Of a DNA stretch of 64,000 nucleotides, positions 1-28,129 are shown piece after piece. The DNA comes from Pusillimonas sp. T7-7. GTDB lineage: Bacteria > Pseudomonadota > Gammaproteobacteria > Burkholderiales > Burkholderiaceae_B. The translations under genes were made by a program, and so were the position numbers. Below the pieces are notes generated by a model, which worked only from the letters and a program-made list of their open reading frames with translations, was not told the origin of the DNA and made no database searches. The stretch lies in contig NC_015458.1 in the NCBI RefSeq assembly GCF_000209655.1, positions 3,534,001 to 3,598,000 of the forward strand, read 5' to 3'. Position 1 is the stretch's first letter, and each line of letters starts with the position of its first letter.

Positions 1-4
1 GAGA

Positions 5-3000
5 TCAGGCGACATAGTGCTGATTTTCCGAAGGTGCTTGCAGTACGTCGGCAATGGCGTTCGCAACCTTGCCTACACTGGCGCCCGACAGCATCGTGAC
101 GTGATCCCCGGCAACGTGGCGTATTTCCACCGATGTGCTATAGGTTTGCCAGCCCATGTCCGGGAGGGCCAGCAGCTGATTTTCGTGCTTGCCCAGATCG
201 GAGTCGCGTGGCGCGGATGCGCGGATGAGGGCCAGACAAAGCGCGGTATCGGCGTTGGCTGCGGGTCGGTAAGCCAAATAAGCTTCGTATTGCGCCATAC
301 CTGTGTCGAGCGCACGTTCCAGCCAGTGTGCATCGGCGGCCGGCGGAAGCAATTTGGCGCCGTGCAGGCGCTGGGCGGCGAACTCGAAGCGGCTGGATGC
401 GGGAACGGTCAGTAGTTCTTCTTGTGTGAGCACGGGCTCGATGCCCTGGAAACGGGCGCGGACATCAGCCATGCGGGCCAGCCATTGGGCCTGGGCCCGC
501 TCAGGGTCGGGGTCCAGTATGGAGGTCCGCTCCAGCGGCGCCGGGGTGTCGATCAGTACCACGCGTTCCGGGGGGGAGCCCAGGGCCGCCAGTTGCCGGG
601 CCATTTCGAATGCCACCAGGCCGCCGAAGGAATAACCGCCTACCCAGCGGGGCGAGGCCTGGCCGCGTTTTGCCAATGCCTGCAGGTTGGCCCTGGCCAT
701 TTCGGGAATGGTCCGCAGTACTTGCTGACCTTGCTCCAGGCCGGCGGCTTGTATGGCCCAAAACGGTAAAGACGGCGGCAAGGCACGGGCCAGGTCTAGA
801 AATACGCTGACATCGCCGGCGACGGGATGTACGCACACAAAGGGAGGGTTGGCTTGGCAGGCCGAATCTGTGCCCGCCGTCTGGTTCATGGGTACCACGG
901 GGCTCCAGCGTTGGCCTGACTCCAGGGCTTGGGCCAGGGCGGCGACGGAGCGGTGCTCAAGCAGCAAGGAGATGGGGACGCTGCGATCCAGCACCTGTTC
1001 CAGTCGCAAGGCGAGCTGGGTTAGCCGAAGGGAGTTCAAGCCCAACAGCCAGAAATCGGTATCCAGATCAGGGTTGTCGCCGGCATCGCCAGGACCTGCT
1101 GTGCCGGGCAGTACGCTGCTGACAGCGCCCGCAATGCGGGCTTCCAGCGTGCTGCGTGGCCGGGTGGCAAACCGCAAGGACGAGCCGGCTGCGCTTGCGG
1201 CAGTCATTGGCGCCGTGCGCGCTTCCGGGCGGGGCAGGGCGTCATGCCGGCCGTCGGCGGCGGTCGGCAAGGCGGCGAGCATAGCTGCAATGACGCGCAG
1301 CAGCTGTTCGCCCTCTTCCAGTTCGCGGCCATCGTCGGGCTGCACTACGGACAAGGCAATGGATTCACCCGGTATGGCGACAAAGGTCAGATCGTAGGCT
1401 GTTTTAAGCCGAGTATGCACGGCCTCGACCTGCAAGCCTTCCGCCCCGCTCCAGGCGCTGGTGCCCGATGCCAGGTTCTCGACCAGCACCAATGTATCGA
1501 ACAAGGGACCGGACGCCATGGAAGCGCTGGCGGTCGCGGCAATGTCTGCCGGTGACAAATGGGCATGCTGCTGCAGCTGGCCCAGTTGCGTCTGCAGGGC
1601 GGCCAGTTGCGAGGCCGGTGTGCCGTCGGGATCCAGGCGCGCCCTGACAGGCAGATTGTTGATGAACATGCCTACGATATGTTCGACCCCCGGTATGCCG
1701 GCCGGCCGGCCGGAAACCGTCGTGCCAAATACTACATCACGCGTGTCCAGGCGCGCGGCCAGCCATGCGGCCCATACGTAATGCATGACTGTGGCAAGCG
1801 TCAGGCCGCGCCGGCGCGCAAAGGCAGTCAGTGCGCGACTTGCCGGTTTACTCAGGGCAAGCCGTTGCGTGTTGAAACGGTGCGCGGCTCGAGATGCCGG
1901 GGCAAACAGGCAACGGCGTTCAGGCAGGTCCTGCAGCTGGCGGGCAAAGAATGCTTTGCTGTCGGCATGATCGTTGCGCTCAAGCCAGGCAATATATGAT
2001 CGATAGGGAACAATGGGGTCGAGCAAGGGCGTGCGCCGGCTGCGGTAGCTTTCATAGGCGGCCCTGACTTCTCGCTCCAGGCGTCCCAGACACCAACCGT
2101 CGACCAGAAGATGGTGGAAGCTGGATATCAGGTAGACATCGTCATCGGCCACTTGAATCAGCGTCAGCCTGACCAGCGGCGCCTGTTCCAGTTGAAAGCC
2201 CCTGGCCTGGTCTTGGGCCAGCAAGACCTGCAGCCGCGCTGCATCGAATTGAGGCCAGTGTTCGATAGTGAGCGGCAAGGGTACTTGGTGCTGCACGACC
2301 TGCAGCGGCCGGGCCAGGCCGCGCCAGTGAAAAGCTGTACGCAAGACATCGTGGCGCTCGAATACGGTGGCCCAGGCGTGGCGGAAGGCCTCCAGGTCGA
2401 GCTTCCCGACGATGCGCATGCAGCTTTGTTCAAAGTTCACCCCCGAGCCCGAAGCTGCCAATGAATGCACAAGCATGGCCTCCTGCATAGGCGATAGCGG
2501 GTAGATATCTTGTATGTGATCGGTGGATGACAGCAGCGCGGTCAGTGTCGGCCCTGACACCTGGGCCAACGGAAAATCATGGTCGGTGTACAGCGGGCGC
2601 CGGCCAGGGACGGCCAGCTCGGCTATGGCCTGTAGCGCGGCGGCCACACGTTCGAGCAGCGCGGCGGCATCGATGGCGGATTCGGCGCCGGCCCAGGCGA
2701 GCTTGAGTTGCCCGCCAGAGAGTTCCGCCAGCAGTGCAGCTTGCACCGATGAGCTGAAGCTGGGCGGAGAGTGCATCCGTATGTGGTGCTGCGTGATGGG
2801 GGTGCCGGCCCAGGCCAATCCCAATTTGGCGGTAGGCAGGTCAAAAGCCTGGACCAATGTTTTGTAGGCGCAGGCGGTAGCCGATACGGCTTGTCTGGCG
2901 GATTTGACGGCCTGCAGCCGTTCAAGCGCAGGCATATGGCCCGTGGGCGCCAATATGGGCAATACGCTGTCCATCTTGCCCATGATGCGATGGGCGTCGG

Positions 3001-6000
3001 GTGCGTCGTCAGGCAGATGGCGAGGGGTATCCAATGCTTCAAGCAGGACCAGGCCTTCGCCCGCGTCCAGTGCGCAGCTCAGTGCCGCGGCCAGCATGTC
3101 CAGTGGTGTGATTGCCAGTTGCATGACGGTTTGTCGGCATAAGGTATCGCTTAATGCAGAGGGCAGGCTCAGCCGGGCGGCAACAGGAAGTGAGGCCGTC
3201 CGGCCATCCAGCCTGGGCAGGGCGGCATCCCGCAGGGCAGGCGCTTCCAGTGCAGCAAGGCCGGGTCCGGCGGCCTGCCGATCGGCGTGTTCTTGCAGCC
3301 AGCTGAGCCAATCACCGTAATTCAGCCCATCATTGGGTAAGGGCAAGGCGGCTGTGCCGGACTTGATGGCCCGGTTCAGTTCGCTCAGCAGCAGTGCCAG
3401 GCTGGCCTGGTCGGCGGCGCCCGGGTGTACCGCCAGGACCACCACCGGAGGCATGGCTGCGCCGCGGTCAACCAGCGTTGCGGCCAGTGTGACGCCGGTC
3501 TGGGTGTCCAGGCCGCGGCCTAGACGCTCGGCATGCTCGGCGACCCATTCGTCGATATGCGTGTCTGGCAGATTTGCGGCTTCGACCATGCGTATGGGTA
3601 GCTGGCCGACATACGCGGCAATTTCCAGATGGCTGGACTGGCCCTCGCGCATCCAGCGCAGGCGCAGCGCATCGTGCCTTTCGGCCAGCCTTTGAACAGT
3701 CAGCGCCAGCTCGACCGCCCGGACGGATTGATCGAGCACTACGCTGGCGAGCAGGTAAGGCTGAGTCAGGACGGCGCCAGTGGCTTCAGGCAGGAGCTCG
3801 GCGGGGAAAATCCGTGCGGCGCTTCGGCGAGAGGCGGACTGGGACGAGATCAACAGCCCGGCCAGCTGTTCTATGGTTTGAAGCTGGAAGACATCGGATG
3901 GCGTGAGCGAATAGCCGGCCTCCGAGGCGCGGGCCGCCATGCGTATGGCCAGTATGGAGTCGCCGCCAATGTGAAAAAAACTTTCGGTGACGCCTACGGA
4001 CTCCAGCCCCAGCAGCTCTTGCCAGATGGATTGAAGCAGGATTTCTTCTTCGTTGCGGGGCGCAACCAGGCCTCCCGCGCGATCATAGTGATGATCTTCG
4101 ACGGGAGGGAGCGCCTTGCGGTCGACCTTGCCATTCAGGTTGAGGGCAAGCGTCTTGGCGCTGACATAGGCGTGCGGCAGCATATGGGGAGGCAACAGCG
4201 CCTGCAGGAACTGGCGCAGATCGGCCGGGCTAGGCCCCGGCATGGTCTGTGGAACCGCATAGGCAATAATCTGCCGCTCTCCTTTGCCCTGTCGCGGCGC
4301 GGCGACATGCACCATGCGCAACGCAGGGTGGCGCGCAAGCGCGGCCGCGATTTCGTTCAGCTCGATGCGGAATCCACGTACTTTGACCTGGTCGTCCGAG
4401 CGGCCGGTGAACAGCAACAGACCGTCAGGGCGCCAGCGGCCGAAGTCGCCGGTGCGATACATGCGGGCGCCGTCCCTGTCGTCGAAAGGGTCGGGCAGAA
4501 AAGCCGCGGCGCTGCGTTCCGGGTCGTTCACATAGCCGGAGGCTACGCCGTCTCCGCCGACATAGAGTTCGCCATTGATTCCGGGCGGCAAAGGCTTGCC
4601 GCGCCTGTCGAGCACATAGACGGTGCTGTTTGCCACAGGCGGACCCAGGGGAAGATGAATGTCATCGTCACGCAGGTCAGCCAGGTTGAAGCAGGTGCTG
4701 AAGGTCGTGTTCTCTGTGGGGCCGTAGGCATGCAGCAGCTGCAGGCCAGCGTTGACGCCCGCCTGGTATACCGCGCGGGCCAGATCCAGATTGGTGGTGT
4801 CGCCACCCGTCAGTATGGTGCGTTGTCCGGCAAACAGGCTGGGGTCGATCGCGGCGATTTCATGGAAAAGACCCGTGGTGATCCACATCAGGGTGATGTT
4901 GTGTTCGTCCAGCGTGCGTTTGAGCAAGGTGCTGTCCAGCACGGTTGTGCGGGTCAGTGTGACGAGGGCGCCGCCATTCAGCAAAGGGGACCAGATTTCG
5001 AGGGTCGACGCATCGAAAGCTGGATTCGAATAGAGCGCGGCCCGGGTCTGTGGTCCGAACTCGGCAAAGTTGACGTTGTGAGCCAGACGCACGATGCCGC
5101 GATGCGGCACGGCCACGCCCTTTGGCTCGCCAGTGGAGCCTGAGGTGAACATGATGTATGCGGTGCTGGATGAGGCAAGAGGATATGCTGGGAAAGCGTC
5201 CAGTCTGGATGCCCGGTCTTCCAGACTGGCGATATCGTGGGTGTCTATGCCTTCATAGTCCTGCTCGTCGGTATCTGCCGCCAGCAAGATGGCGCGTGCA
5301 CCGATGGACTTTGCCAGCCGACAGCGGTGAGCATGAGGGTGGGCGGGATCCAAGGGCACATAAATGGCGCCCAAGCGCAAAACCGCCAGTACCAGCGTTA
5401 CGTAGCGGGCGCAGGGCGGTTGCACGATGACCACCGGATCGCCAGCGCCCACGCCGACTGCGCCCAGGGCGCTGGCCATGCGAGCTGATGCGGACAGCAG
5501 CTCGGCATAGCTGATGGTTGTGCCGTTTTCTTCAATGGCCGGGTTATTCGGGCAGCGCTGTGCGATGCTGTCGAACATGGCCACAACGCTGAGTTCGGAG
5601 GCATAGGGGCGGCGCGTGTCGTTGAACCGCCGGACGAGGTCGCGGCCCTGCGCATCGCTGATCAGCGGCAGGTCGGCCAGCGCCCGGGATGGCGCAGCGG
5701 CTGCCGCCTCGGCCAGGGCGCCGAACCAGGACAACAGGTTGCCGATGGTTGCGCGCTCGAACAACGAGGGATCATACCGACACCAGAGCTCCAGATGCTG
5801 ATCTGTTTGGCGGTAAACCACCGAAAGATCCGACTTGGCGGCCTGTTCGGTTTGATCGTCCACCACGGTGTAGCGGCTGCCATCGCTGGTTTGCACAGGC
5901 CGGCCATCGGCTTCAAGACCGCCAAACAGTATTTGCATGAGCGGTATGACGTCGGCATGCCGTTCGATATCGATGGCCTGGACGATACGCTGGAATGGGA

Positions 6001-7012
6001 CGTCGCGGTGCCGGACGGCGTCGCGAAAAGTGCGCTGCACTTGTTCCAGTAAAGTGTCGTAGCGTGTGTCGGCGTCGCATTGGATGCGCAAGGGCAAGGT
6101 ATCGACCAGCAGGCCGATCAGGCCGGCCAGTTCTGGCCGGGTGCGCTTGGAAACCGGCACAGTCACCATCAGGTCCTCAAGACCGCTCCAGCGGTGCAAG
6201 ACGGCAAAGAACACTGCAAGCAAAGCCATGAAAGGTGTTGAGCCTCGCTGCCTGGCCGATTCGGCCAGTGCCGTGCCTATGGCGCCGGGCAGCAATAAGC
6301 GCTGAGTTGCGCCGGGGCCTGATGGGCGTGCGCCGCGCTGTCCATCGACAGGCAGGTCCAACAGGGCGGGCGCTTCGTGCAGCTGCTCGCGCCAGTAGCG
6401 CAAGGCCTCGGTCAGTGCGGGTGCATGGGGTGCGCCGAACTGTTCCTGCTCCCAGTCGGCATAATCGGGATATTGCAAAGGCAATTCAGCCCAGGCTGGC
6501 GCCGTGCCTGACAGCACGGCATCGTAGGCGACGGCCAGATCGTCAATAAACAGGGGCAGCGATGCGCCATCGGCCACGGCATGGTGAAACACCACGCCCA
6601 AAGCCATGCCACAGCCTGCGGCCAGGGGATTGTCGGGCACGAACAGCCGGGCGACAACGACGGGACCCTGGTCGAGGTTCAGGCCTTGCGAGGCCAGATC
6701 GGACAGCGTATTGCGAATACCCTGCAGCCATTGATCGCGGTCGCCAGGCATATCGATTCGCGGCAAGGGGATATCGAGGTCATCGTGCACTGTCTGTGCC
6801 GGAACGTCGTCGATCAGTGGAAAGCTGGCCCGCAGCACATCGTGCCGCTGTATGACGGCGTTAAAGGCCAGCCGCAAGCTGGCTTCGTCGACGGGCGGGC
6901 TGATCTCGATCAGCAGCGGCAGTGCGTAGTCGGACCTGCCCGGCTGCAACAGATCGAGATAGCGCAACTGGCGCTGGGCGAATGAAGCCGCGGCGATATA
7001 TCCGCTGCTCAT
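5..7012 (-). CDS. NRPS, C-A-PCP-(E-like)-C-PCP-TE, terminal synthetase
   Basis: Nonribosomal peptide synthetase of 2,335 residues, probably the last enzyme of the line. Domains in order: C (HHAVADG near 142), A (FTSGSTGEPKG near 622; AYGPTENT), PCP (GGDSI, Ser about 1018), an epimerase-like domain about 1070–1420, C (HHLLVDGW near 1633), PCP (LGLNSLRL, Ser about 1994) and a type I thioesterase (GYSFGG, Ser about 2128; late GDHVTML His). By alignment with GrsA the A-domain code reads D-A-L-W-L-G-A-T-F-K, closest in my memory to Val-type codes (DAFWIGGTFK), weakly. Two oddities: the E-like domain has HPGAADQAS where HHxxxDxxS is expected, and the last C-PCP pair has no adenylation domain. Its ATG overlaps the upstream NRPS stop by four bases (ATGA), so the two are co-translated. 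The stop codon lies at the window edge, so further cluster genes may lie to the left. Confidence 0.93.
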   Translation of the reverse strand: MSSGYIAAASFAQRQLRYLDLLQPGRSDYALPLLIEISPPVDEASLRLAFNAVIQRHDVLRASFPLIDDVPAQTVHDDLDIPLPRIDMPGDRDQWLQGIRNTLSDLASQGLNLDQGPVVVARLFVPDNPLAAGCGMALGVVFHHAVADGASLPLFIDDLAVAYDAVLSGTAPAWAELPLQYPDYADWEQEQFGAPHAPALTEALRYWREQLHEAPALLDLPVDGQRGARPSGPGATQRLLLPGAIGTALAESARQRGSTPFMALLAVFFAVLHRWSGLEDLMVTVPVSKRTRPELAGLIGLLVDTLPLRIQCDADTRYDTLLEQVQRTFRDAVRHRDVPFQRIVQAIDIERHADVIPLMQILFGGLEADGRPVQTSDGSRYTVVDDQTEQAAKSDLSVVYRQTDQHLELWCRYDPSLFERATIGNLLSWFGALAEAAAAAPSRALADLPLISDAQGRDLVRRFNDTRRPYASELSVVAMFDSIAQRCPNNPAIEENGTTISYAELLSASARMASALGAVGVGAGDPVVIVQPPCARYVTLVLAVLRLGAIYVPLDPAHPHAHRCRLAKSIGARAILLAADTDEQDYEGIDTHDIASLEDRASRLDAFPAYPLASSSTAYIMFTSGSTGEPKGVAVPHRGIVRLAHNVNFAEFGPQTRAALYSNPAFDASTLEIWSPLLNGGALVTLTRTTVLDSTLLKRTLDEHNITLMWITTGLFHEIAAIDPSLFAGQRTILTGGDTTNLDLARAVYQAGVNAGLQLLHAYGPTENTTFSTCFNLADLRDDDIHLPLGPPVANSTVYVLDRRGKPLPPGINGELYVGGDGVASGYVNDPERSAAAFLPDPFDDRDGARMYRTGDFGRWRPDGLLLFTGRSDDQVKVRGFRIELNEIAAALARHPALRMVHVAAPRQGKGERQIIAYAVPQTMPGPSPADLRQFLQALLPPHMLPHAYVSAKTLALNLNGKVDRKALPPVEDHHYDRAGGLVAPRNEEEILLQSIWQELLGLESVGVTESFFHIGGDSILAIRMAARASEAGYSLTPSDVFQLQTIEQLAGLLISSQSASRRSAARIFPAELLPEATGAVLTQPYLLASVVLDQSVRAVELALTVQRLAERHDALRLRWMREGQSSHLEIAAYVGQLPIRMVEAANLPDTHIDEWVAEHAERLGRGLDTQTGVTLAATLVDRGAAMPPVVVLAVHPGAADQASLALLLSELNRAIKSGTAALPLPNDGLNYGDWLSWLQEHADRQAAGPGLAALEAPALRDAALPRLDGRTASLPVAARLSLPSALSDTLCRQTVMQLAITPLDMLAAALSCALDAGEGLVLLEALDTPRHLPDDAPDAHRIMGKMDSVLPILAPTGHMPALERLQAVKSARQAVSATACAYKTLVQAFDLPTAKLGLAWAGTPITQHHIRMHSPPSFSSSVQAALLAELSGGQLKLAWAGAESAIDAAALLERVAAALQAIAELAVPGRRPLYTDHDFPLAQVSGPTLTALLSSTDHIQDIYPLSPMQEAMLVHSLAASGSGVNFEQSCMRIVGKLDLEAFRHAWATVFERHDVLRTAFHWRGLARPLQVVQHQVPLPLTIEHWPQFDAARLQVLLAQDQARGFQLEQAPLVRLTLIQVADDDVYLISSFHHLLVDGWCLGRLEREVRAAYESYRSRRTPLLDPIVPYRSYIAWLERNDHADSKAFFARQLQDLPERRCLFAPASRAAHRFNTQRLALSKPASRALTAFARRRGLTLATVMHYVWAAWLAARLDTRDVVFGTTVSGRPAGIPGVEHIVGMFINNLPVRARLDPDGTPASQLAALQTQLGQLQQHAHLSPADIAATASASMASGPLFDTLVLVENLASGTSAWSGAEGLQVEAVHTRLKTAYDLTFVAIPGESIALSVVQPDDGRELEEGEQLLRVIAAMLAALPTAADGRHDALPRPEARTAPMTAASAAGSSLRFATRPRSTLEARIAGAVSSVLPGTAGPGDAGDNPDLDTDFWLLGLNSLRLTQLALRLEQVLDRSVPISLLLEHRSVAALAQALESGQRWSPVVPMNQTAGTDSACQANPPFVCVHPVAGDVSVFLDLARALPPSLPFWAIQAAGLEQGQQVLRTIPEMARANLQALAKRGQASPRWVGGYSFGGLVAFEMARQLAALGSPPERVVLIDTPAPLERTSILDPDPERAQAQWLARMADVRARFQGIEPVLTQEELLTVPASSRFEFAAQRLHGAKLLPPAADAHWLERALDTGMAQYEAYLAYRPAANADTALCLALIRASAPRDSDLGKHENQLLALPDMGWQTYSTSVEIRHVAGDHVTMLSGASVGKVANAIADVLQAPSENQHYVA

Positions 7013-17809: not shown

Positions 17810-20800
17810 CGACATCATCGCCGCAAGGCTTGCACGAGCGCATTGCCCGCTTGAACGCCGAGCAGGTCGTCAAGCTGGTCACTGGGCTGCAGCAGCGCAT
17901 CGATGCGTTACGGGCTGCACAAGATGAGCGGCACGACGCCGCATTGATTGCCGTCATCGGGTTGGGGTGCCGTTTTCCGGGTGCTGCCAGCGCGGCCGAA
18001 TTCCAAGGCTTGCTGGAGCGTGGCATTCATGCCGTGGGCGCCGCAGCGGTCAATCGGCCAGAGCGCGAACAGCTGCCGCCCGGGGGCTATATCGAAAACA
18101 TAGAATGCTTTGATGCCGCATTCTTTGGCCTGCGCGACAGCGAGGCGGCCCAGATGGATCCCCAGCATCGCATTGCGCTCGAAGTGGCGTGGCATGCGCT
18201 CGAAGACGCGGGTCTGGCCGATTCGGCATGCCGGCCCAGGAACAGCGGCGTATTTCTTGGCATCAGCACGCACGACTATGCCGCCCGTTTTCACGGAAGC
18301 GAGGCAGGCTTCACTCCGCTTGCGGCCACAGGCAATTCGGCCAGCGCGGCAGCGGGCAGACTGGCGCATTGGCTCGATATCACCGGACCGGCCCTGGCGG
18401 TCGATACGGCTTGCTCCTCGTCGCTGGTTGCCGTTCACACAGCTTGCCGCAGCTTGCAGGCCGGCGAGTGCGACATGGCCCTGGCAGGCGGCGTTAACGC
18501 CTTGATTTCCGATGAGCTGACGCGTGGGTTTGCCGCGGCGGGCATGCTCAGCCCCACTTACGCCTGCCATACTTTCGACGCGAGCGCCGATGGCTATGTG
18601 CGCGGAGAAGGCGCGGGCTTCGTTGTGCTGAAGCGCTTGTCCGATGCCCTGCGTGATGGCGATCATGTGCGTGCAGTCATACGCGGCGGCGCGGTCAATC
18701 ATGATGGGCGAGCCAGTTCTTTGACGGCGCCCAATGCCAGCGCGCAGGCCGCCCTGATAAGCGCCGCATTGGCCGATGCAGGCCTGGCGCCCGGCGATGT
18801 ACAGGTGGTGGAGTGCCATGGCACGGGTACGCCTTTAGGCGATCCCATTGAAGTCCAGGCTCTGGCGCAAGCCTATGCGCAGGGACGGCAGAGCCCTCTA
18901 TTGTTGGGCTCCGTCAAAACCAATATAGGGCATCTTGAAGCCGCCGCCGGCATAGCGGGTTTGATTAAACTGGTGCTGTCGATACAGGCCGGCAAGCTGT
19001 TTCCCACCTTGCATCAGTCTGCGCTCAATCCACGCGTAGCCTGGGATACCCTGCCGATACGCGTCATCGATCATGGGCAAAGCTGGCCTCAGGCTGCGGA
19101 ACGCCGGGCCGGTGTCAGCAGCTTTGGCTTTAGCGGCACCAATGCGCATCTGATTCTCGAGGTGGCGCCCGAGGCCGCGGCTGCTTCCGCGCCAGCCTTC
19201 CACGGACCTGTCGTACTGCCTTTGTCGGCCCCCGACCAAACCGGACTAGCCAGGCTGGCCGGCGTGCTGGAGGCATGGGTGGGCCAGGAAGGCCTGGATT
19301 TGCATTGTGCGGTGGCGGCTTATGCGCTGGGGCGTCAACCCCATGCCTTTCGGGCCGCGGTGGCCGGTGATGACGCCGCCGCATTGGCGGCCGGGCTGCA
19401 AGATATTGCGGCCGGCCGGGACCCCATGCTTGGCGCGCGCGGCACGCCTGTGTCCGATAAACCCCGGGTTGCTTTCATGTTCACCGGACAAGGCAGCCAG
19501 TGGGCGGGCATGGGTAAAGACCTGTACGACACAGACCTTGTGTTCAAGCAGGCTGTAGATCGCTGCGCCAGCATCGTCACGCCCTTGATCGGATGTTCGC
19601 TGACCGATCTGATGTTCCAGGAGCCGCCCGCAGGCGAGTCGCTGTCTGACACCCGCCTGGCTCAGCCCGCCCTGTTTACGCTGGAATATGCGCTAGCTGA
19701 ACGCCTGGCGTCCTGGGGCGTCGTGCCTGATATCATGATAGGCCACAGCCTGGGCGAGTGGGTCGCGGCCTGCCGCGCCGGTGTGTTCTCGCTGGACGAC
19801 GCCCTGCGCCTGGTGGTCGAGCGCGGCCGGTTGATGGCGGGCGCTTCGCAAGAGGGCGCGATGGCGGCCGTATTTGCGCCGGCCCAATGCCTGGCGCAAC
19901 TGCCCGGAGAACTTGCGGCAAGCGTAGACCTGGCCGCCGTCAACGCGCCTGATGAATGCGTGATCTCCGGCCCGGCCCAGGCTGTTCGGCAAGTTTGCGA
20001 GGCCCTGGAAGGCCTGGGCCTAGGCACTCAACTGCTGCGCACATCCCATGCTTTTCACTCGCGTCTTATGGAGCCGGCGCTTGATGCGTTTGCATCGATG
20101 GTGTCCAGTGCCGTCATGTCGCCGCCCACCATGGCACTGGTGTCCAATCTTACGGGCGCCATCGACGCGCCCTTCGATACCGTCGATTATTGGGTGCGCC
20201 ACATAAGGCAGCCGGTGCGTTTTGCCGATGGCGTCTCCACGCTGGCCGACATGAAAGTCGACGTATTGATCGAAGTGGGTGCAAGCCCCAATCTGATCGG
20301 CACAGCAAGCCGCTGCCCTGCGTTTCAGGAAATAGCGCCGGTACTGGCGGCCACCTTACGCCGCAATCAGCCTGCCAGCCGTACGCTGGGCCAGTTGCTG
20401 GCCCAGTTATATGTGGCGGGCCTGCCCCTGAATTGGGAAGCTCTATACGGTAAGCGTCCACACATGGATGCGCCTGGCTATCCCTTTGAGCGGCGCCGGC
20501 ATTGGGCCGAACCGGCAGCGGCGCCTCTTGTGCGTTCTGCCTCAACTGCGCCGGCAAGTACGCTTGCGGCGGCTCAGCCCGAGGACCTCAAGCCAGACTC
20601 GCACAAGACGCCACAAGATCTCGCTGCCGAGGTCGGCCAGTTTCTGGTTCGCACCCTGCAGCTTTCAGAAAGCGATTGCGATTCGGATCGCAGCTTTCTG
20701 GAAATGGGTGTGGATTCGCTGGCGCTCACTGAAGCGGTTGCCGCGCTTGAGCGGAAATGGTCGATAGCCATTCCAAGACGCGCCTTGTTTGAAACATTGG

Positions 20801-23800
20801 GTACGCCGGGGCGCCTGATCGCACATGTGCTGGCCGAGTCCGTCCGCGCCGTGCCGCCTGCTGCCGGCAGCAAGCCTGTCGCGGCGGCCGCAGTGATGGC
20901 GCAAACGCTGGCGCCAAGTCCGGCGCCAGCGGCGCCTGTTCAAGCGCTTTCAGCCGAGCAGCAGGCGGGTCTGGCACAGTTCTCGCAGGCTTATGTGCAA
21001 CGCAGCCGCGCCTCACGCGAGCAGCGCAGCCAGTTTGGCGCTTACCTGGCCGACAGCCGGGCTGTGGCGGGGTTTCGACCGGAAACCAAGGGCATGCTTT
21101 ATCCCATAGTCGGATCGCGCGCCGAAGGCAGTCAAATGTTCGACGTGGACGGCAATCGCTATGTGGACATTGCCATGGGTTTTGGGGTCCAGCTGTTCGG
21201 CCACAGCCCAGGCTTTATTGCGGAGGCGATCTCCAGGCATATCGGCGAGCGTGGCTTGTTCATCGGGCCGCAAGCGCATTTGGCGGGCGAGGTTGCGCAA
21301 CGTCTGTGTCGTCTGACCGGCAATGCGCGGGCGGCCTTCTGCAACAGCGGGACTGAAGCCGTCATGACGGCGCTGCGCCTGGCCAGGCATGCCACAGGCA
21401 GAAAAAAAGTGGCCATGTTCCAGGGTTCCTATCATGGCCATTTCGATGGCGTGCTGGCCCAACTTGGCCCCGATGGCGCTGCCCTGCCTATGGCCGGGGG
21501 CACTCCGCAAGGCATGGCTGATGATATCGTGCTGCTCGATTATGGCGACGAAACGGGATCGCTTGAAACCCTGGCCGCGCTGGGCGATACCGTTGCAGCT
21601 GTATTGGTCGAGCCAGTACAGGGCCGGCGGCCTGATCGCCAGCCCAAAGTATTCTTGCAACGGCTGCGCGAGCTTACTCACTCGACCGGTGCGGCGCTCA
21701 TATTCGACGAGGTGCTGCTGGGTTTTCGCGTCGCACTGGGCGGGGCGCAAGCCTGGGCGGGCGTGCAGGCCGACCTGGTCACTTACGGCAAGATCGTCGG
21801 CGGCGGCCTGCCTATCGGTGTTGTGGCCGGGCAGGCCCGCTACCTGGACGCCCTGGATGGCGGGCCATGGTCGCTGGATGGCGATGGCGAACCGCGTGGC
21901 GAGCGCACTTTTTTTGCAGGCACCTTCAACAAGAATCCACTTGCCATGGCGGCGGCGCGGGCGGTGCTGGCATATCTTGAAGAGGCGGGTCCGGGCCTGC
22001 AGGAGGCCTTGAACCAGCGTACCCATGATTTTGTCGTCCGCTTGAATGCCATACTCGATCAAGAAGACTGCGGCATATCGGTACACGCATTTTCGTCCCT
22101 GTTCCGCTTTGTGGGGGCCAGCGATCTGTTCTACAACGCCATGATCCAGAATGGCGTTTATGTCTGGGAAGGACGCACCTGCTTTCTGTCCACCGCCCAT
22201 AGCGATGACGATTTGCGGCACATCGAAAACGCCGTGCGCGAGTCGCTGCGAGGCATGCGCGCCTGCGGCATGTTGCGCCCCGCCAGCCAGGCCTTGCCAT
22301 CGGCGTCTGTGGCCGTTGCGCCGCAAACCGAATCCATCCCGGCAACAGCCGGACAGACGGCCTTGCGGCTACTGGCCGCTTTCAGTCCACAGGCTTCGGC
22401 GGCTTACAACCAATCCTTGATATTCAATTTTCACGGGCCGCTGGATACGCAGGCCCTGCGTTCGGCTTTGCACGAGGTTTGCGCCAGGCATGAGGCCTTG
22501 CGCACTACTTTTCCCGAGGACGGCGCCACCCAAGTCATTCATCGCGAGCTGGCCCCCGAGCTATCCAGCATGAATAGTCCGGGTGATGAGCAAGCGTTCC
22601 AGCAGTGGCTGGACGATGCGGTGCTCACGCCCATGGACCTGGAGCACGGCCCCATGCTGCGTGCCTGGATTCTTGCACAAGAGACCGACCGTCATCGCCT
22701 GGTGCTGGCCATACCGCACCTGATAGTCGATGGCTGGTCACTGCAGCTGATCGCTCTTGAACTGGCTGAGCTGTATAGCGCGCGCACGCAAGGCCGGCCT
22801 GCAATACTGGCCGAGGCGGTACCGTATCGCCGCTATGCCGAGCATGCGCGCTTGCAGGCTGATGCACCGGAAGCAGCGGATTACTGGCGCGCTCTGTATG
22901 CCACTCAGCCTCCTGCGCTCGACTTGCCTGCCGACCGGCTGCGCCCGGCATTGCAAAGTTACGCCGGAGCCCGTGCCCGCTGCCGCGTGCCTGCTTCAGT
23001 GCGGGGCAGCCTGGAGGCGCTGGGCCGACAGACCGGGAGTTCTCTGTTTTCGGTTTGCCTGGCTGCTTATGGGCGCTTGCTGTCCGAGCTTTCGGGGCAG
23101 CGCGATATGGCTGTAGCCATCTTTTCAGCCGGGCAGCCCGAGCTGGGTGTTTCTGCTCTGGTGGGCTATTGCGTAGGGGTCTTGCCTTTGCGCTTGAACA
23201 TCGATGCAGCGGTTCCAACGACAGCTCTCCTGGCTTCCACACAGCAGTCTGTTTCGCAGGCCATGGCGCAGCGCGACTATCCCTATGCAAGGCTGATAAA
23301 AGACTTGGGCTTGCGGCGGGATCCCGCCCGCCCGCCACTGGCTTCGGTGTCGTTCAACCTGGACCGCATGGATGCCGCGCCCTGCTTCGCGGCGCTGGAC
23401 ACGCAAGTCGACGCCAATGCGCACGCCGCAGTGCGCTGGGACCTGAACTGGAATATCTTGTCTGATGCCGACGGGCTGCATATCGACGCTTATTACAACC
23501 GCGACCTGTTCGATGCGGAGCGGGTTCAAGCCTGGCTGGCGCGTTATGTGCAGATACTGGAATCACTGACCGACACAGCCCCGAGCGGCCCGCCCCAGCC
23601 GTCGCAAGAGTCTGCACAGATCGAGACACTGGCAGGCAGGGTAGCAACTGCCGTAAAGCTTGCCCCAACGGCCACAGCCGTGATCGACCATGTGGGCAAG
23701 ACAGATTACGCCGCGCTCGATGCAATGGCCAACGCTCTTGCACAACGCCTGGCGGCCAAGGGCGTGCTTCGCGGCGACAGGGTGGCGTTCAGGCTGGCGC

Positions 23801-26778
23801 GGGGTTTGGGGCCGGTCGTTGCCATGCTGGCCATCATGCGGCTGGGGGCGGCTTTTGTTCCGCTCGACGACGAACACCCGGACGAGCATCATGCCTATGT
23901 GCTGCAAGATAGCGCCGCAGTGGCCGTGATTATTGATGCCGGCGCCCGCAGTCTCTTGTCGTCCATTGCCACCGTTGAGTGGCAGCGGGGGGGAGCGGCG
24001 TCCGTGGCCGCCTGCCTGCCTGCATCGACCATGCCTGCCGGGGCGACAGCCTATGTCTTGTACACCTCGGGCTCCACCGGTAGGCCCAAGGGCGTGCGCG
24101 TTTCGCATGGCGCCATTGCCTGCTATGTACCGGCCATGCTGGAGCGTCTTGCGATGACAGGGGCGCTCTCTTTTGCCATGGTCTCTTCATTCGCCGCCGA
24201 CCTCGGTTATACCTCGGTGTTCGGTGCGCTATGGACGGGGGGCGCCTTGCATGCCATCGATGCGGAGTCCGCCCGCGATCCGGCGGCCCTGCAGCGCTGG
24301 ATGGCCGAATCGCCGGTCGATGTGTTGAAAATTGTTCCGACGCATTTGGCGGCCCTGCTCGATACGCCGGAATCGCAATCTCTGCTGCCGCGGCGCGCGC
24401 TGATTCTGGGGGGCGATGTCCTTACTTGGCGGCTGGTGGACCGCATTCAGGCTTTGGGCGCCGAGTGCCGTATCTTCAATCACTATGGTCCGACTGAAAC
24501 AACCGTGGGCGCCTGCATGACTGAAGCGCGGGACGATTTGCGCGAAGAAGGCGATCATGCCGTGCCGGTCGGCCCGCCTCTTTCCGGTTATCACATCACG
24601 TTGCTGGATTCGAGCGGCGCCGCGGCGGCAGCCGGTCAGGAAGGAGAGATCGTTATTGCGGGCGCTGCCGTGGCCATGGGCTATACCCAGCCCGAAGCCG
24701 CAGACAAGCAACGATTCGGGATATCCGACACCGGCGAGCGCTTTTATCGCACTGGCGATCTTGGACGCCGGCCCAAGCATGGCGCCATCGTCTTTGTGGG
24801 GCGCAGCGATGACATGGTCAAGATACGCGGACATCGCATCGAGCCTGCCGGTCTGGCCGAGATCTTGCGTACCTATCCCGGGGTGCGGGCCGCGATTATG
24901 CTGGTTGAGGCAAGGGAAGGGCGTGAACCCACGTTGTGCGCGGCGGTGGCTGGTGAAGTCAATGGCGATGATTTGCTTGCCTGGCTGGCCAGGCAAGTAC
25001 CCGCGGCCATGGTTCCGCAGCGTTGTGTGGTGTGCGCCGCCTTGCCCTTGACCTCCAATGGCAAGATCGACCGCCAGGCTTTGCTGGCCAAAGCCGCATC
25101 GCAGGCGGCCGCCGATCATCCGTCTGTCTCCATGCCAGTGCTGCAAGACGATCCTGTTCTGGAGACCATGTATGCATTATGGCGCTCGGTGCTGCAGTGC
25201 GACGAGGTTGGCCCCGATGATGATTTCTTTGCGTTGGGCGGCGATTCCATCATGGCCATACAAATCGTTGGCAGAGCGCGTGCCCACGGCCTGGCCTTGA
25301 CGCCCACCCAGGTATTCGAGGCGCCCACGCCGCGAGGGCTGGCGCAGCTTGCGGCACCGGTCAGCGAGGTAGCGGGCCGTGATGTGATCGTCGAGGCGGT
25401 GCCGCTCACGCCCATACAGCACTGGTTCATGGAAACCCCCATGCGTGATCGCAATCGCTGGTGCCTGACAGCGGTATTTGCACTGCCCCTCGTGCCTACC
25501 CAGGACCGGATACGCGCAGCAGCCACGGCTATCCAGGCCAGGCATGACGCATTGCGTGTCCGCTGGGCGCCGGGGCCGCAGGGCATGTTGCAGCAGCTTG
25601 CGCCGCCGTTGCCGCCAACCGTGCGGATTGTTCAAGGCGTTTCGCCGGACGCGGGGATGCTACGGCAGAGCGAAGACGAGTTGGCCGATACCCTGATGGC
25701 ATCCATGGATCTTAGCCAGGGCAGAGTCTTTGCCATGGGAGCGCTTGCCATGCCAGGCGGGCAAGGCCGTCTGGTGGTGGCTGTACATCATGCTGTCTTC
25801 GACATGGTGTCGTGGTCGATACTGGCTGATGATCTCCAGGCGGAACTGATGGACAATGCTGTGCCGGCGCAGCCCGCCACCACAAGCTGGACGTGGTGGT
25901 CCAGGGCGCTATCAGAGCGGGCTCAGGCAGCTGATGCCGCTCTGCCTTACTGGGCTGACGTCGCCAGGAAGGCCGCGACCGCCGCGCTGATACCGATCGA
26001 CGAGCCCGCAGCAGACAACACCGAAGGCAAGGTGCAGGAAGAACATCTGGTGCTGGACCAGGCGCTGTCTTCCCGCTTTCTGGCCGGAACGTCCGCCGTC
26101 TTTGGCTTGCGCCCGCACGAGGCCGTGCTGGCTGCTGTCGGGCTTGGCCTGGCCGAGTGGTCTCAAGGGCCGTTGGCCTGGGAGCTCGAAGGACATGGTC
26201 GCCAGCCCTTCGATCCGGCCATAGACTTGTCGCGCAGCATAGGCTGGTTCACCACGCGCTATCCGGTAGTGCTGCCCGGGCAGGCAGACTTGCAGGCCTG
26301 GGTGGTAGCCATGAAAGAAACGCTCAGGGGGATACCCGATCATGGTCTGACATACGGCCTGTTGCGATACGGCGGGCACGCCGACTTGCACGCCGAGCCG
26401 CAATTGTCTTTCAACTTTGTTGGCGAAATCAGTCAGTTCGGCACGCAGGCCATGGCCTTGCAACGGCTGGGCGCCGGTACGGAAAGGGCGGCGGATGCGG
26501 CACGCCGTCATGTGCTGGCTTTCGATGGCTGGCAGCAAGGCGGCGAGCTCATACTATCGTGTCGATATGCGGCGCGGCATCACAGGGAAACCATTCAGGG
26601 CTTGCTGGAGCGAGTCCGCCATATGGCGCAGCAGCTGGCTGATGCATGTCAGACATCGGCCGCAGCGGTTTATACGCCATCCGACTTTACGGGCATGTCT
26701 TTCTCGCAAGATGAGCTGGATGATCTTTTGGGGCAAATTGCAGAAACCGATCCGGAAAACGAGGCGGGTCATGGCTAA
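17806..26778 (+). CDS. Hybrid PKS/NRPS, KS-AT-ACP-AMT-C-A(Asp)-PCP-E
   Basis: Megasynthase of 2,990 residues starting at GTG. KS: DTACSSS Cys203, His338, His376. AT: GHSLGEW Ser648 with HAFH at 748–751, the malonyl-CoA signature. ACP: VDSL Ser971. A class III PLP aminotransferase (about 1010–1470) has YGKIVGGG, Lys1329. Then C (PHLIVDGW near 1637), A (YTSGSTGRPKG near 2086), PCP (GGDSI Ser2481) and an intact epimerase (HHAVFDMVSW His2661–2662; EGHGR; GWFTTRYP). No KR, DH or ER is present, so the beta-keto group made by the KS is the natural aminotransferase substrate, giving a beta-amino acyl chain. The A-domain code D-L-T-K-I-G-H-V-G-K matches Asp. The architecture parallels iturin-family MycA/ItuA, except that their loading ligase is fused. 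It overlaps the next gene by eight bases. Confidence 0.93.
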   Translation: MTTSSPQGLHERIARLNAEQVVKLVTGLQQRIDALRAAQDERHDAALIAVIGLGCRFPGAASAAEFQGLLERGIHAVGAAAVNRPEREQLPPGGYIENIECFDAAFFGLRDSEAAQMDPQHRIALEVAWHALEDAGLADSACRPRNSGVFLGISTHDYAARFHGSEAGFTPLAATGNSASAAAGRLAHWLDITGPALAVDTACSSSLVAVHTACRSLQAGECDMALAGGVNALISDELTRGFAAAGMLSPTYACHTFDASADGYVRGEGAGFVVLKRLSDALRDGDHVRAVIRGGAVNHDGRASSLTAPNASAQAALISAALADAGLAPGDVQVVECHGTGTPLGDPIEVQALAQAYAQGRQSPLLLGSVKTNIGHLEAAAGIAGLIKLVLSIQAGKLFPTLHQSALNPRVAWDTLPIRVIDHGQSWPQAAERRAGVSSFGFSGTNAHLILEVAPEAAAASAPAFHGPVVLPLSAPDQTGLARLAGVLEAWVGQEGLDLHCAVAAYALGRQPHAFRAAVAGDDAAALAAGLQDIAAGRDPMLGARGTPVSDKPRVAFMFTGQGSQWAGMGKDLYDTDLVFKQAVDRCASIVTPLIGCSLTDLMFQEPPAGESLSDTRLAQPALFTLEYALAERLASWGVVPDIMIGHSLGEWVAACRAGVFSLDDALRLVVERGRLMAGASQEGAMAAVFAPAQCLAQLPGELAASVDLAAVNAPDECVISGPAQAVRQVCEALEGLGLGTQLLRTSHAFHSRLMEPALDAFASMVSSAVMSPPTMALVSNLTGAIDAPFDTVDYWVRHIRQPVRFADGVSTLADMKVDVLIEVGASPNLIGTASRCPAFQEIAPVLAATLRRNQPASRTLGQLLAQLYVAGLPLNWEALYGKRPHMDAPGYPFERRRHWAEPAAAPLVRSASTAPASTLAAAQPEDLKPDSHKTPQDLAAEVGQFLVRTLQLSESDCDSDRSFLEMGVDSLALTEAVAALERKWSIAIPRRALFETLGTPGRLIAHVLAESVRAVPPAAGSKPVAAAAVMAQTLAPSPAPAAPVQALSAEQQAGLAQFSQAYVQRSRASREQRSQFGAYLADSRAVAGFRPETKGMLYPIVGSRAEGSQMFDVDGNRYVDIAMGFGVQLFGHSPGFIAEAISRHIGERGLFIGPQAHLAGEVAQRLCRLTGNARAAFCNSGTEAVMTALRLARHATGRKKVAMFQGSYHGHFDGVLAQLGPDGAALPMAGGTPQGMADDIVLLDYGDETGSLETLAALGDTVAAVLVEPVQGRRPDRQPKVFLQRLRELTHSTGAALIFDEVLLGFRVALGGAQAWAGVQADLVTYGKIVGGGLPIGVVAGQARYLDALDGGPWSLDGDGEPRGERTFFAGTFNKNPLAMAAARAVLAYLEEAGPGLQEALNQRTHDFVVRLNAILDQEDCGISVHAFSSLFRFVGASDLFYNAMIQNGVYVWEGRTCFLSTAHSDDDLRHIENAVRESLRGMRACGMLRPASQALPSASVAVAPQTESIPATAGQTALRLLAAFSPQASAAYNQSLIFNFHGPLDTQALRSALHEVCARHEALRTTFPEDGATQVIHRELAPELSSMNSPGDEQAFQQWLDDAVLTPMDLEHGPMLRAWILAQETDRHRLVLAIPHLIVDGWSLQLIALELAELYSARTQGRPAILAEAVPYRRYAEHARLQADAPEAADYWRALYATQPPALDLPADRLRPALQSYAGARARCRVPASVRGSLEALGRQTGSSLFSVCLAAYGRLLSELSGQRDMAVAIFSAGQPELGVSALVGYCVGVLPLRLNIDAAVPTTALLASTQQSVSQAMAQRDYPYARLIKDLGLRRDPARPPLASVSFNLDRMDAAPCFAALDTQVDANAHAAVRWDLNWNILSDADGLHIDAYYNRDLFDAERVQAWLARYVQILESLTDTAPSGPPQPSQESAQIETLAGRVATAVKLAPTATAVIDHVGKTDYAALDAMANALAQRLAAKGVLRGDRVAFRLARGLGPVVAMLAIMRLGAAFVPLDDEHPDEHHAYVLQDSAAVAVIIDAGARSLLSSIATVEWQRGGAASVAACLPASTMPAGATAYVLYTSGSTGRPKGVRVSHGAIACYVPAMLERLAMTGALSFAMVSSFAADLGYTSVFGALWTGGALHAIDAESARDPAALQRWMAESPVDVLKIVPTHLAALLDTPESQSLLPRRALILGGDVLTWRLVDRIQALGAECRIFNHYGPTETTVGACMTEARDDLREEGDHAVPVGPPLSGYHITLLDSSGAAAAAGQEGEIVIAGAAVAMGYTQPEAADKQRFGISDTGERFYRTGDLGRRPKHGAIVFVGRSDDMVKIRGHRIEPAGLAEILRTYPGVRAAIMLVEAREGREPTLCAAVAGEVNGDDLLAWLARQVPAAMVPQRCVVCAALPLTSNGKIDRQALLAKAASQAAADHPSVSMPVLQDDPVLETMYALWRSVLQCDEVGPDDDFFALGGDSIMAIQIVGRARAHGLALTPTQVFEAPTPRGLAQLAAPVSEVAGRDVIVEAVPLTPIQHWFMETPMRDRNRWCLTAVFALPLVPTQDRIRAAATAIQARHDALRVRWAPGPQGMLQQLAPPLPPTVRIVQGVSPDAGMLRQSEDELADTLMASMDLSQGRVFAMGALAMPGGQGRLVVAVHHAVFDMVSWSILADDLQAELMDNAVPAQPATTSWTWWSRALSERAQAADAALPYWADVARKAATAALIPIDEPAADNTEGKVQEEHLVLDQALSSRFLAGTSAVFGLRPHEAVLAAVGLGLAEWSQGPLAWELEGHGRQPFDPAIDLSRSIGWFTTRYPVVLPGQADLQAWVVAMKETLRGIPDHGLTYGLLRYGGHADLHAEPQLSFNFVGEISQFGTQAMALQRLGAGTERAADAARRHVLAFDGWQQGGELILSCRYAARHHRETIQGLLERVRHMAQQLADACQTSAAAVYTPSDFTGMSFSQDELDDLLGQIAETDPENEAGHG

Positions 26779-28129
26779 GCCGGAAAAGGGCATGGATAGC
26801 TGGGCGGAACAGGACGGCATGGAGTTCATGATGCCTTTTCCCCTGCACTTTCACTGGCTGGTTGATGACCTGCATATTTGTGCAGGGCCTTCTGTCAATG
26901 GGCAGCTGTGGTGCCTGAATGTCGATGTCCGGCGGCTCTCGACGGGCCAGTGCGAACGCATGCTGTGGGACGCCAATACGCCCTGGGGCCTGGTACGGCG
27001 CGATTCCCATTCCTCCTCCATCATGTCGGTATTGCCGGGTCCGCGCGAACGGGATCTACTTATTGTTGCCGAGCAGGGCATAGGCGACATTATTCAACAG
27101 CTACGCTATGTGTCTCCGGTTGCCGCGCACTTTTGCAGGACCCGAATCCAGTGCAAGCCGGAACTGCACCGTTTCATCAGGCGGCAAGCCATGAATGCAG
27201 AACCGGTTGTGCCGGAACAAGTGCGGGCGGATCCGCCCACGGTGCGAGTGCCGTTGATGCGCATGGGGGCTTTATGCGCCGATCCCCTCCAGGGCGCGGC
27301 TTACCTGACCGCCCCGGGCCGTCCGCGCACCTGGCATGATGGCCTGCGAGTCGGCTTGAACTGGTCCGCAAGCATAAAGGGCGTGGCCAAAGACATTAAA
27401 TCCATACCCGTGCTGTTGCTTGAGCAGCTGATTTCGGCGCATCCGGACGTGTCCTGGGTGAGCGTGCAATGGGGTGACGACGAGGCTTTGCTCATGCAGC
27501 AACCTTGGGCGGCGCAAGTAGAAGCCTGTGGACAAACCGTGGGCGATGTGGCCGACCTGGCTGATGTCGTTGCCGGTCTGGATTTGCTCATCACCATAGA
27601 TAGCGCGCCCGCCCATCTTGCGGGAGCATTGGGCATACCCGTCTGGACGCTGCTGACCCAGCCGTGCAGCTGGCGTTGGGGGCTGGGCAGCAGCCGGACA
27701 GACCTGTATCGCTCCATGCGTCTTTTCCGTCAGGCTGATCTGCACGCCTGGCCTGAGCTGCTGGCCCATGTTTCCGGTGCGCTTGAGTCTGCCAAATTAT
27801 CCACAGATACCCTGGCAGGACCGGTCATGCCAGGGATGTCCGGGCGCAAGCCCAGGGCAAACGCCCCCGCCCCCGCTGCGGGCCAGGCAAGCCAGACATC
27901 GTTGAGCGGCGTTCTGAATATGTGCAAGGAAGCGCCAGCTTTGCGTGCGGCTTTTGTTGCACACCCACTGAAGTTCCTGGCCATGCAGGGCGTACATGTG
28001 CAAAGCCGCGACTATCGCAAGCTGAATCAAATTTTCCAGGCCATGGTCGACTTTCATGGCGGGTTTTCTTGGTGTTGGCCCCTGAAGCCGCTACAATCAT
28101 CTTCTTTCAATTCAACGGTTGCCTCATGA
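26771..28129 (+). CDS. GT9-like glycosyltransferase at the end of the lipopeptide operon
   Basis: Protein of 452 residues from ATG 26771, eight bases inside the end of the megasynthase gene. Earlier in-frame starts lie wholly within that gene and are unlikely. EQGIGDIIQQLRYV near residue 100 and DLLITIDSAPAHLAGALG near 271 match the donor-binding face of heptosyltransferase-type (GT9) enzymes. The TPR repeats that often precede this domain in relatives are absent; instead there is a short N-terminal beta-rich segment. From about 355 a Pro/Ala-rich linker leads to a 60-residue tail (KEAPALRAAFVAHPLKFL) of unknown fold. Position and overlap suggest a sugar is added to the lipopeptide, but donor and acceptor are unknown. 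Its last four bases overlap the STAS gene. Confidence 0.7.
   Translation: MAKPEKGMDSWAEQDGMEFMMPFPLHFHWLVDDLHICAGPSVNGQLWCLNVDVRRLSTGQCERMLWDANTPWGLVRRDSHSSSIMSVLPGPRERDLLIVAEQGIGDIIQQLRYVSPVAAHFCRTRIQCKPELHRFIRRQAMNAEPVVPEQVRADPPTVRVPLMRMGALCADPLQGAAYLTAPGRPRTWHDGLRVGLNWSASIKGVAKDIKSIPVLLLEQLISAHPDVSWVSVQWGDDEALLMQQPWAAQVEACGQTVGDVADLADVVAGLDLLITIDSAPAHLAGALGIPVWTLLTQPCSWRWGLGSSRTDLYRSMRLFRQADLHAWPELLAHVSGALESAKLSTDTLAGPVMPGMSGRKPRANAPAPAAGQASQTSLSGVLNMCKEAPALRAAFVAHPLKFLAMQGVHVQSRDYRKLNQIFQAMVDFHGGFSWCWPLKPLQSSSFNSTVAS
28069..28097 (+). promoter_or_regulatory. Candidate sigma-70 promoter of the STAS gene
   Basis: TTGGTG (28069–28074) and TACAAT (28092–28097) are spaced by 17 bases and lie 29 bases before the STAS ATG, inside the 3' end of the glycosyltransferase gene. 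This suggests the STAS gene is an independent unit and that the cluster ends here. Confidence 0.5.

Follow-up and report, generated by a model that had tools for sequence, protein, structure and literature searches.

A conserved hybrid PKS/NRPS gene cluster of Pusillimonas sp. T7-7 and other Alcaligenaceae, predicted to make a short lipopeptide headed by a beta-amino fatty acid

The locus and its genes

Pusillimonas sp. T7-7 (GCF_000209655.1), whose genome consists of two contigs totalling 3.92 Mb, carries a biosynthetic gene cluster at the left end of the stretch of DNA analysed here. This stretch, referred to as the window, comprises 64,000 nucleotides (positions 3,534,001 to 3,598,000 of contig NC_015458.1) and contains two operons that diverge from about 11.9 kb. 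The rightward operon encodes a type II thioesterase (TE), an ABC exporter with a cyclic nucleotide (cNMP)-binding domain, a fatty acyl-AMP ligase fused to an acyl carrier protein (FAAL-ACP), a hybrid of polyketide synthase (PKS) and nonribosomal peptide synthetase (NRPS), and a GT9-like protein. The hybrid is built of ketosynthase (KS), acyltransferase (AT), ACP, aminotransferase (AMT), condensation (C), adenylation (A), thiolation (T) and epimerization (E) domains. The leftward operon encodes a PhyH-type oxygenase, a C-A-T synthetase and a C-A-T-E0-C-T-TE synthetase by Pfam, where E0 denotes an E-type domain with a defective motif. The cluster extends beyond the left edge of the window, up to a convergent phosphopantetheinyl transferase (PPTase) gene, and spans 29 kb from there to the GT9-like gene. 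A 298-aa open reading frame (ORF) at L008:13171-14067 on the minus strand was rejected as a cluster gene because it is antisense to the PPTase gene.

An earlier sequence-only reading had proposed much of this layout, and the parts that it named are confirmed to be present. The protein that it took for a free-standing FAAL-ACP upstream of the hybrid has Pfam AMP-binding, PP-binding and DIP2-like AMP domains; FAAL families are among its leading NCBIfam matches, none of them above its cut-off. The GTGA coupling of this gene to the hybrid is found as an overlap at 17806-17809. The predicted domain order of the hybrid is returned by Pfam, with the last Condensation-family stretch identified as an E domain by its motifs (HHAVFDMVSW and EGHGR) and by its place in a tree of C and E domains. 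This tree samples three of the 13 family genomes that carry the cluster and was drawn without branch supports. The HAFH malonyl signature of the AT and the pyridoxal phosphate (PLP) lysine of the AMT, Lys1329, also stand where they had been described, and ketoreductase (KR), dehydratase and enoylreductase domains are absent from the Pfam matches of the hybrid at E<=0.001, as claimed. Overlooked by that reading were the spread of the cluster through the family, the terminal module without an A domain, the defective E0, the PhyH-type oxygenase and the type II TE, and the PPTase and GT9-like genes of most clusters.

Conservation in the Alcaligenaceae

Of 268 genomes of the same family, 20 have a match to the AMT domain at E<=1e-60. 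Thirteen of them, T7-7 included, come from eight genera and match at 73-100 %; the other seven belong to a single genus and match at 47-50 %. The same core genes and domains, in the same order and orientation, are found in all 13 clusters, and the PhyH-type oxygenase and the type II TE are among them. As an identical layout recurs in 12 other genomes, it is not a product of chance. The motifs of the KS, AMT, C, T, E and TE domains are likewise kept in 13/13. The FAAL is a separate protein in nine clusters and is fused to the hybrid in four, which ties it to this KS. The PPTase gene adjoins ten clusters and was not found within 2-3 kb beyond the NRPS genes in the other three, and the GT9-like gene is present in nine. 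In one cluster, that of Allopusillimonas ginsengisoli, the terminal NRPS is divided over two ORFs, with the break between A3 and T3 (L045:4603-11687). The closest named relatives of the hybrid are from Pusillimonas sp. MFBS29, Alcaligenaceae bacterium CAII-52 and A. ginsengisoli, with 75-78 % identity over the best segment.

A related AMT occurs in 12 of 399 genomes of the order, T7-7 included, and a transaminase is listed for the described ocf cluster (PMC9494966); related AMT modules are not new to the order. Ten of the other order-level AMT loci (all but that of G393) differ from this cluster in architecture, as does G642, the one locus read among the seven that match at 47-50 %. A related AMT module also lies on a Burkholderia arboris plasmid, found among the 5 of 123 matching plasmid records that were opened.

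Table 1. Genes and domains of the cluster (window coordinates)
Feature	Position	Strand	Basis or remark
NRPS P0001, C-A3-T3-E0-C4-T4-TE, 2335 aa	5..7012	-	Pfam, sequence; layout in 13/13 clusters
C domain of module 3, HHAVADG, groups with LCL-type	5633..7000	-	motif, C/E tree
A3 domain, code DALWLGATF, Val-like	4103..5590	-	code alignment
T3 carrier domain, GGDSI	3839..4060	-	motif
E0, epimerization-type domain, HP or HR instead of HH	2543..3835	-	motif, tree, AlphaFold2 model
C4 domain, HHLLVDG intact, groups with DCL-type	1268..2521	-	motif, C/E tree
T4 carrier domain, own A domain absent	923..1150	-	Ser kept in 13/13
Terminal TE, GYSFGG	38..865	-	Pfam, motif
NRPS P0002, C(DCL-type)-A2-T2, A2 code DGTIVAEVW	7009..10305	-	Pfam, code, tree
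PhyH-family Fe(II)/2-oxoglutarate oxygenase P0005	10959..11798	-	Pfam, motifs, AlphaFold2 model
Type II TE P0006, RifR-like, GNSYG	11979..12776	+	Pfam, motif
ABC exporter P0008, C-terminal cNMP-binding domain	12832..15642	+	Pfam
FAAL-ACP P0004	15662..17809	+	ORF opens at 15593; GTG at 15662, preceded by AAGGAG, more likely starts the gene
Hybrid P0003, KS-AT-ACP-AMT-C-A1-T1-E, 2990 aa	17806..26778	+	Pfam, motifs
KS, DTACSSS	17938..19215	+	Pfam, motif
AT, GHSLGEW, HAFHS malonyl signature at residues 748-752	19453..20445	+	Pfam, motif
PKS ACP, GVDSL	20608..20835	+	motif
AMT (class III), PLP Lys1329 in TYGK	21043..22290	+	Pfam, motif
C domain predicted to receive the beta-aminoacyl chain	22318..23580	+	Pfam, motif, tree
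A1, code DLTKIGHVG (Asp)	23638..25095	+	code alignment
T1 carrier domain	25153..25365	+	Pfam, motif
E domain, HHxxxD and EGHGR	25408..26670	+	intact in 13/13; tree
GT9-like protein, overlaps the stop of the hybrid	26771..28129	+	weak PF01075, 23.9 bits (cut-off 22)
Sfp-type PPTase gene, convergent	-800 to -21 (L008:13201-13980)	+	PF01648, 56.8 bits

The acyl head

Among structures in the PDB the nearest match of the AMT is that of mycosubtilin synthase with 445 bits, followed at 198 bits by the next kind, glutamate-1-semialdehyde aminomutase, a margin of 247 bits. It is 51.7 % identical to the AMT of BamA (tblastn), and the AMTs of the 12 other clusters are 72-89 % identical to that of T7-7, the highest mean (80 %) of 23 domains or genes compared. 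The C domain that follows the AMT falls in one clade with seven of eight other post-AMT C domains and with some N-terminal C domains. The seven come from G021, G218, G642, BamA, a Paenibacillus, and the Burkholderia arboris and Planktothrix plasmid loci. The AMT match, the clade of post-AMT C domains and the conservation of the AMT together make a beta-amino fatty acyl product the best reading, and the analogy by which such a head had first been proposed is supported by these comparisons.

The peptide

Three A domains are present in the cluster, in keeping with the short peptide that had been expected. The code positions of the A domains were assigned by alignment to the GrsA layout, and LCL and DCL are used as names for the groups of C domains. 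The A1 code DLTKIGHVG, or a close variant, is found in all 13 clusters; the sequence-only reading had left the first slot as Asp or Asn, of which Asp stands and Asn falls. DLTKIGHV is paired with the second module of SrfAB, specific for Asp (PMC3207962). The E domain after A1 is intact in 13/13 and P0002 opens with a DCL-type C domain, and D-Asp is therefore consistent with the domains.

The second residue is less clear. The A2 code reads DGTI(V/I)(A/G)EVW across the 13 clusters and has no exact match among the published codes compared. With the usual final Lys added, six of ten positions of the T7-7 code agree with DSALIAEVWK, a His code (PMC12283262). The A3 code is DA(L/V)W(L/V/M/I)G(A/G)TF, near DALWIGGTFK, which is common among A domains for branched-chain residues (PMC12283262); DALWIGGT is a Val code in putisolvin synthetase (PMC4219678). 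LgrA was rejected as an informative structural neighbour of A2 and A3, as its totals sum two A domains and the single-domain scores are 192-274 bits.

An odd terminal end

The last NRPS ends in an arrangement that is fixed in the whole set of clusters. E0 lies between T3 and C4 and has lost the second, catalytic His of HHxxxD to Pro in six clusters and to Arg in seven. It still groups with E domains in the tree, its best PDB match is the E domain of TycA (weak, E 0.008), and an AlphaFold2 model built from 13 sequences gives a C/E fold with a mean predicted local distance difference test (pLDDT) score of 75.4, that is, with moderate confidence. The EGHGR region is reduced to one invariant Glu, E266 of the E0 alignment. 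From these changes we infer that E0 cannot epimerise. Its mean identity to the T7-7 copy is 55 %, close to the 57 % of the live E domain. C4 retains HHxxxDG and, with a mean identity of 72 % to the T7-7 copy, is better conserved than the other three C domains; the serines of T4 and of the TE are kept in 13/13. No A domain precedes T4 in any of the 13 clusters, and the cluster DNA that was read contains no A-T or A gene standing by itself. A literature search on A-less modules retrieved nothing.

The A domains of the 12 other cluster genomes were counted with TIGR01733 at E<=1e-60. Two of these genomes, G519 (100 % complete, with the cluster on a 3.85 Mb contig) and G577 (100 % complete), have exactly three A domains, all within the cluster, against four to eight in the remaining ten. 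In T7-7 itself the sole further A domain above the curated cut-off lies in an EntF-like NRPS at 1044656, and the next match, at 202 bits, is in what appears to be the range of acyl-CoA ligases. The loading of T4 thus falls to one of the three A domains or to a lower-scoring ligase, unless T4 stays empty. The two genomes with three A domains make one from within the cluster the probable source. The adjacent A3, on the same protein, is the foremost candidate, and the chance that it loads both T3 and T4 is put at somewhat under even.

Another AMT cluster of the Burkholderiales, that of G021, also ends in C-A-T-E-C-T-TE (L062:241-7302, or 20241-27302 of the joined pieces), and a last module that lacks an A domain and follows an E domain may thus recur beyond the cluster described here. 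The EntF-like NRPS of T7-7 (G000:C1:1044656-1049072) is a separate synthetase with C and A domains in a frame of 1345 aa and has an adenylating enzyme nearby. It is perhaps part of a catecholate siderophore system, the EntF-like name being itself inferred.

Tailoring enzymes

P0005 keeps its HxD motif (W-H-H-D) and the distal His in 13/13 clusters. Its AlphaFold2 model (mean pLDDT 94.6) matches MysH first, then SnoN and SnoK, with SyrB2 at rank 43. Fe/2-oxoglutarate halogenases of the SyrB2 type carry HxA/G instead of HxD. As HxD is present in 13/13, P0005 was rejected as a halogenase and hydroxylation is the likelier reaction. SnoN, which shares this fold, is an epimerase, and a stereochemical role for P0005, for which nothing here speaks, is conceivable. 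At E<=1e-55 a protein of this type is found in one of 369 genomes of the class, that of T7-7 alone. Among the best 120 of 295 matches its relatives reach as low as about 46 % identity and 266 bits, followed by a drop to 191 bits; those named among the matches listed are from Pusillimonas, Parapusillimonas granuli, Candidimonas and Pollutimonas subterranea.

The type II TE was considered as a SyrC-like enzyme. The nucleophile of SyrC is a Cys; P0006 has the Ser motif GNSYG and a RifR-type match, and a SyrC-like function is not favoured. The exporter consists of an N-terminal extension of about 190 aa, the ABC transporter core and the C-terminal cNMP-binding domain. The GT9-like protein that closes the rightward operon makes glycosylation of the product possible.

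Proposed pathway and alternatives

Taken together, the locus is best explained as a complete hybrid PKS/NRPS cluster whose product would be a short lipopeptide headed by a beta-amino fatty acyl chain, with a probability of about three in four. The gene and domain order, the motifs and their conservation are observed, and the chemical steps are read from them. The FAAL would adenylate a fatty acid and load it onto its own ACP, the KS would add one malonyl unit supplied by the cis AT, and the AMT would convert the beta-keto into a beta-amino group on the ACP. The C domain after the AMT would then couple the beta-aminoacyl chain to Asp, which the E domain would turn into D-Asp. From there the chain would pass to P0002 for residue 2 and to P0001 for residue 3, predicted to be Val-like. 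If A3 loads both T3 and T4, the TE would release a lipotetrapeptide, and E0, inactive in epimerization, would persist as a structural link. The most likely role of P0005 is to hydroxylate an intermediate bound to a carrier, the type II TE would clear mis-primed carriers, and P0008 would export the product. In its full form this proposal has one A domain serving two successive carriers across an inactive E0, an arrangement fixed in eight genera in which E0 acts as a connector and C4 takes an L donor, leading to a product of the type beta-aminoacyl-D-Asp-X-Val-Val not yet described. That all these parts hold at once is rather unlikely.

Several observations weigh against this reading or parts of it. 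The AT signature is not uniform, being HAFHS in T7-7 and HAFHS, QAFHS or HGFHS in the relatives, with one residue varying per variant. The eighth post-AMT C domain, from G279, groups with LCL-type C domains. A2 agrees with none of the codes compared and has no informative PDB neighbour. E0 retains its invariant Glu near the EGHGR position, and C4, judged to be DCL-type by the tree, calls for a D donor, at odds with an E0 that looks dead. Further A-type matches at E<=1e-60 occur in ten of the 12 genomes, and adenylating enzymes of T7-7 that score below about 205 bits, under the census threshold, could load T4.

The nearest competitor, rather unlikely in our estimate, is that module 4 adds no residue: C4-T4-TE would take over the chain of a lipotripeptide and release it by hydrolysis or by closure through the beta-amine. 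The missing A domain of module 4 and the two complete genomes with no A domain outside the cluster would be explained at once. C domains, however, normally require an aminoacyl acceptor, and C4 is conserved as if it were condensing.

Loading of T4 in trans, by a divergent adenylating enzyme or another transferase as in syringomycin and perhaps with a residue modified by P0005, is a little less probable still. The further A-type matches in ten relatives and the adenylating enzymes of T7-7, scoring up to 202 bits, would provide candidates, and an oxygenase of the PhyH type beside an A-less C-T-TE end is the arrangement of SyrB2 and SyrE. The cluster DNA that was read, however, yielded no free-standing A-T or A gene as a partner, the HxD of P0005 is not the motif of a halogenase, and the Ser motif of the type II TE is unlike the Cys of SyrC.

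A siderophore of the acyl-beta-hydroxyaspartate type is improbable. An Asp in first position, an oxygenase in the cluster and the occurrence of DLTKIGHV in a pyoverdine synthetase as well would fit it, but the cluster genes and those of the flanking genes that were scanned include no TonB receptor, ferric reductase or iron-uptake family, the oxygenase is of PhyH type and not of the TauD type that makes beta-hydroxy-Asp, and T7-7 has the separate EntF-like NRPS. That the AMT is idle and the head a keto or hydroxy acid is the least probable of all, as the PLP lysine motif is present in 13/13, the AMT is the best conserved of the 23 domains or genes compared and Pfam finds no KR to make a hydroxyl, even if AMT activity is itself read from sequence.

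Genomic setting and history

In six of the 13 genomes the genes nearest to the cluster are those found at T7-7, with one for a permease of the xanthine/uracil type to the left and a STAS gene to the right. In G474, a cluster-free genome from the genus of A. ginsengisoli, the permease and STAS matches are about 310 bases apart, forming an empty site (L115:8028-10475). G597, from the same genus as T7-7, lacks both the AMT and the STAS gene. In G504 and G575 the cluster lies on the opposite side of the same SpoIIE-MFS-Alr-HATPase-STAS block. The STAS gene is within about 10 kb of the cluster in ten of the 13 genomes (in G505 and G574 by coordinates) and far off or on a different contig in G519, G600 and G593. 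The block of SpoIIE phosphatase, HATPase and STAS genes (window 27922-28464; L008:5079-11319) resembles a partner switch, and the cluster lies within or beside it, in two positions depending on the genus. The STAS gene was not adopted as a cluster member: every one of the 13 genomes with the cluster has it, but so do 56 of 255 without, and relatedness alone could account for the co-occurrence.

Over 15 concatenated domains or genes, cluster identity correlates with MetH identity (r = 0.58, 78 pairs). G519 is close to T7-7 in MetH (93.9 %) yet far in the cluster (only 62.9 %), which suggests, from this one marker, transfer of the cluster within the family. The GC content is 0.63-0.64 at positions 1-8000 and 16001-28000, 0.58-0.60 in the middle of the cluster and 0.57-0.59 in the downstream DNA to position 64000.

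Comparison with known systems

No characterised cluster with this gene order turned up in the searches made, among which a MIBiG or antiSMASH comparison does not figure, and no report of such a product from these genera was found among the papers listed (for example 40 of 657 or 20 of 1,441 matches), in a literature of which most subscription papers lay outside the coverage. The cluster is thus a conserved, compact and apparently undescribed lipopeptide cluster of the Alcaligenaceae, available in 13 natural variants and clonable whole. It offers two natural cases: how an A-less terminal module is loaded in genomes (two of the 13) where at E<=1e-60 all A domains belong to the cluster, and what keeps an E domain without catalysis in place between a T domain and a DCL-type C domain.

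The iturin-like logic proposed at the outset holds for the start of assembly. Mycosubtilin, iturin and bacillomycin D of Bacillus share with this cluster a start from FAAL and ACP, one malonyl extension and an AMT beside a C domain. The post-AMT C domains of BamA and T7-7 fall in one clade and the AMT is of mycosubtilin type. Iturin-family peptides begin with Asn. Membership of that family does not hold, as the cluster has Asp with an E domain after residue 1, three A domains compared with seven, an A-less last module and a cis AT, whereas the locus of BamA is annotated with a separate malonyl transacylase, BamD, and has no AT match inside BamA. The FAAL is, moreover, on its own protein in 9/13. 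The iturin family itself comprises cyclic heptapeptides (PMC11751314).

The microginins of cyanobacteria are small linear lipopeptides, usually with Tyr, Pro or Trp at the C-terminus, and their clusters, similar in size and layout, also combine FAAL, ACP, a KS-AT-ACP-AMT-NRPS hybrid, few NRPS modules and an ABC transporter (PMC12250027). They differ in having a halogenase (micC) and an N-methylating methyltransferase (micH), neither of which is among the Pfam matches of the cluster genes here; non-halogenated microginins exist (PMC12250027). In contrast, the T7-7 cluster has the PhyH oxygenase, an E domain, the dead E0, the A-less module and a Val-like A3. An alpha-hydroxylated beta-amino acid is a trait of microginins; here a PhyH oxygenase is present, which may or may not act at that position. 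Laxaphycins contain a beta-amino acid, and the peptides of puwainaphycins and laxaphycins are much longer than the one predicted here. Puwainaphycins, likewise from cyanobacteria, are FAAL-started lipopeptides with a beta-amino fatty acid, a feature shared with the cluster (PMC4219810), and laxaphycins are cyanobacterial lipopeptides from a PKS/NRPS route (PMC7524897, PMC8471579).

Two systems of Burkholderia were compared as well. One of them, occidiofungin (ocf), is an octapeptide. It is a betaproteobacterial glycolipopeptide in which a novel amino acid, NAA2, is made by a polyketide route, and its cluster has two TEs, one of them within the last NRPS and one separate, as well as a glycosyltransferase and a transaminase gene (PMC9494966). 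It differs in its 58 kb, several large NRPSs, separate transaminase gene ocfL and other gene order (PMC9494966). The other, AFC-BC11, is a short N-acyl tetrapeptide whose pathway includes a FAAL; it was rejected as a match because it is made without condensation domains (PMC12186527), compared with four C and two E-type domains here.

The A-less C-T-TE end resembles a terminal module of the syringomycin type and departs from it in that no A-T partner was found in the cluster DNA, nor at E<=1e-60 in G519 and G577. The biosynthetic kind is familiar, and what is unusual, and testable, is that a module without an A domain, preceded by a dead E domain, has become fixed. Judged by its domains, assembly would begin as in iturin or microginin, but the cluster belongs to neither family.

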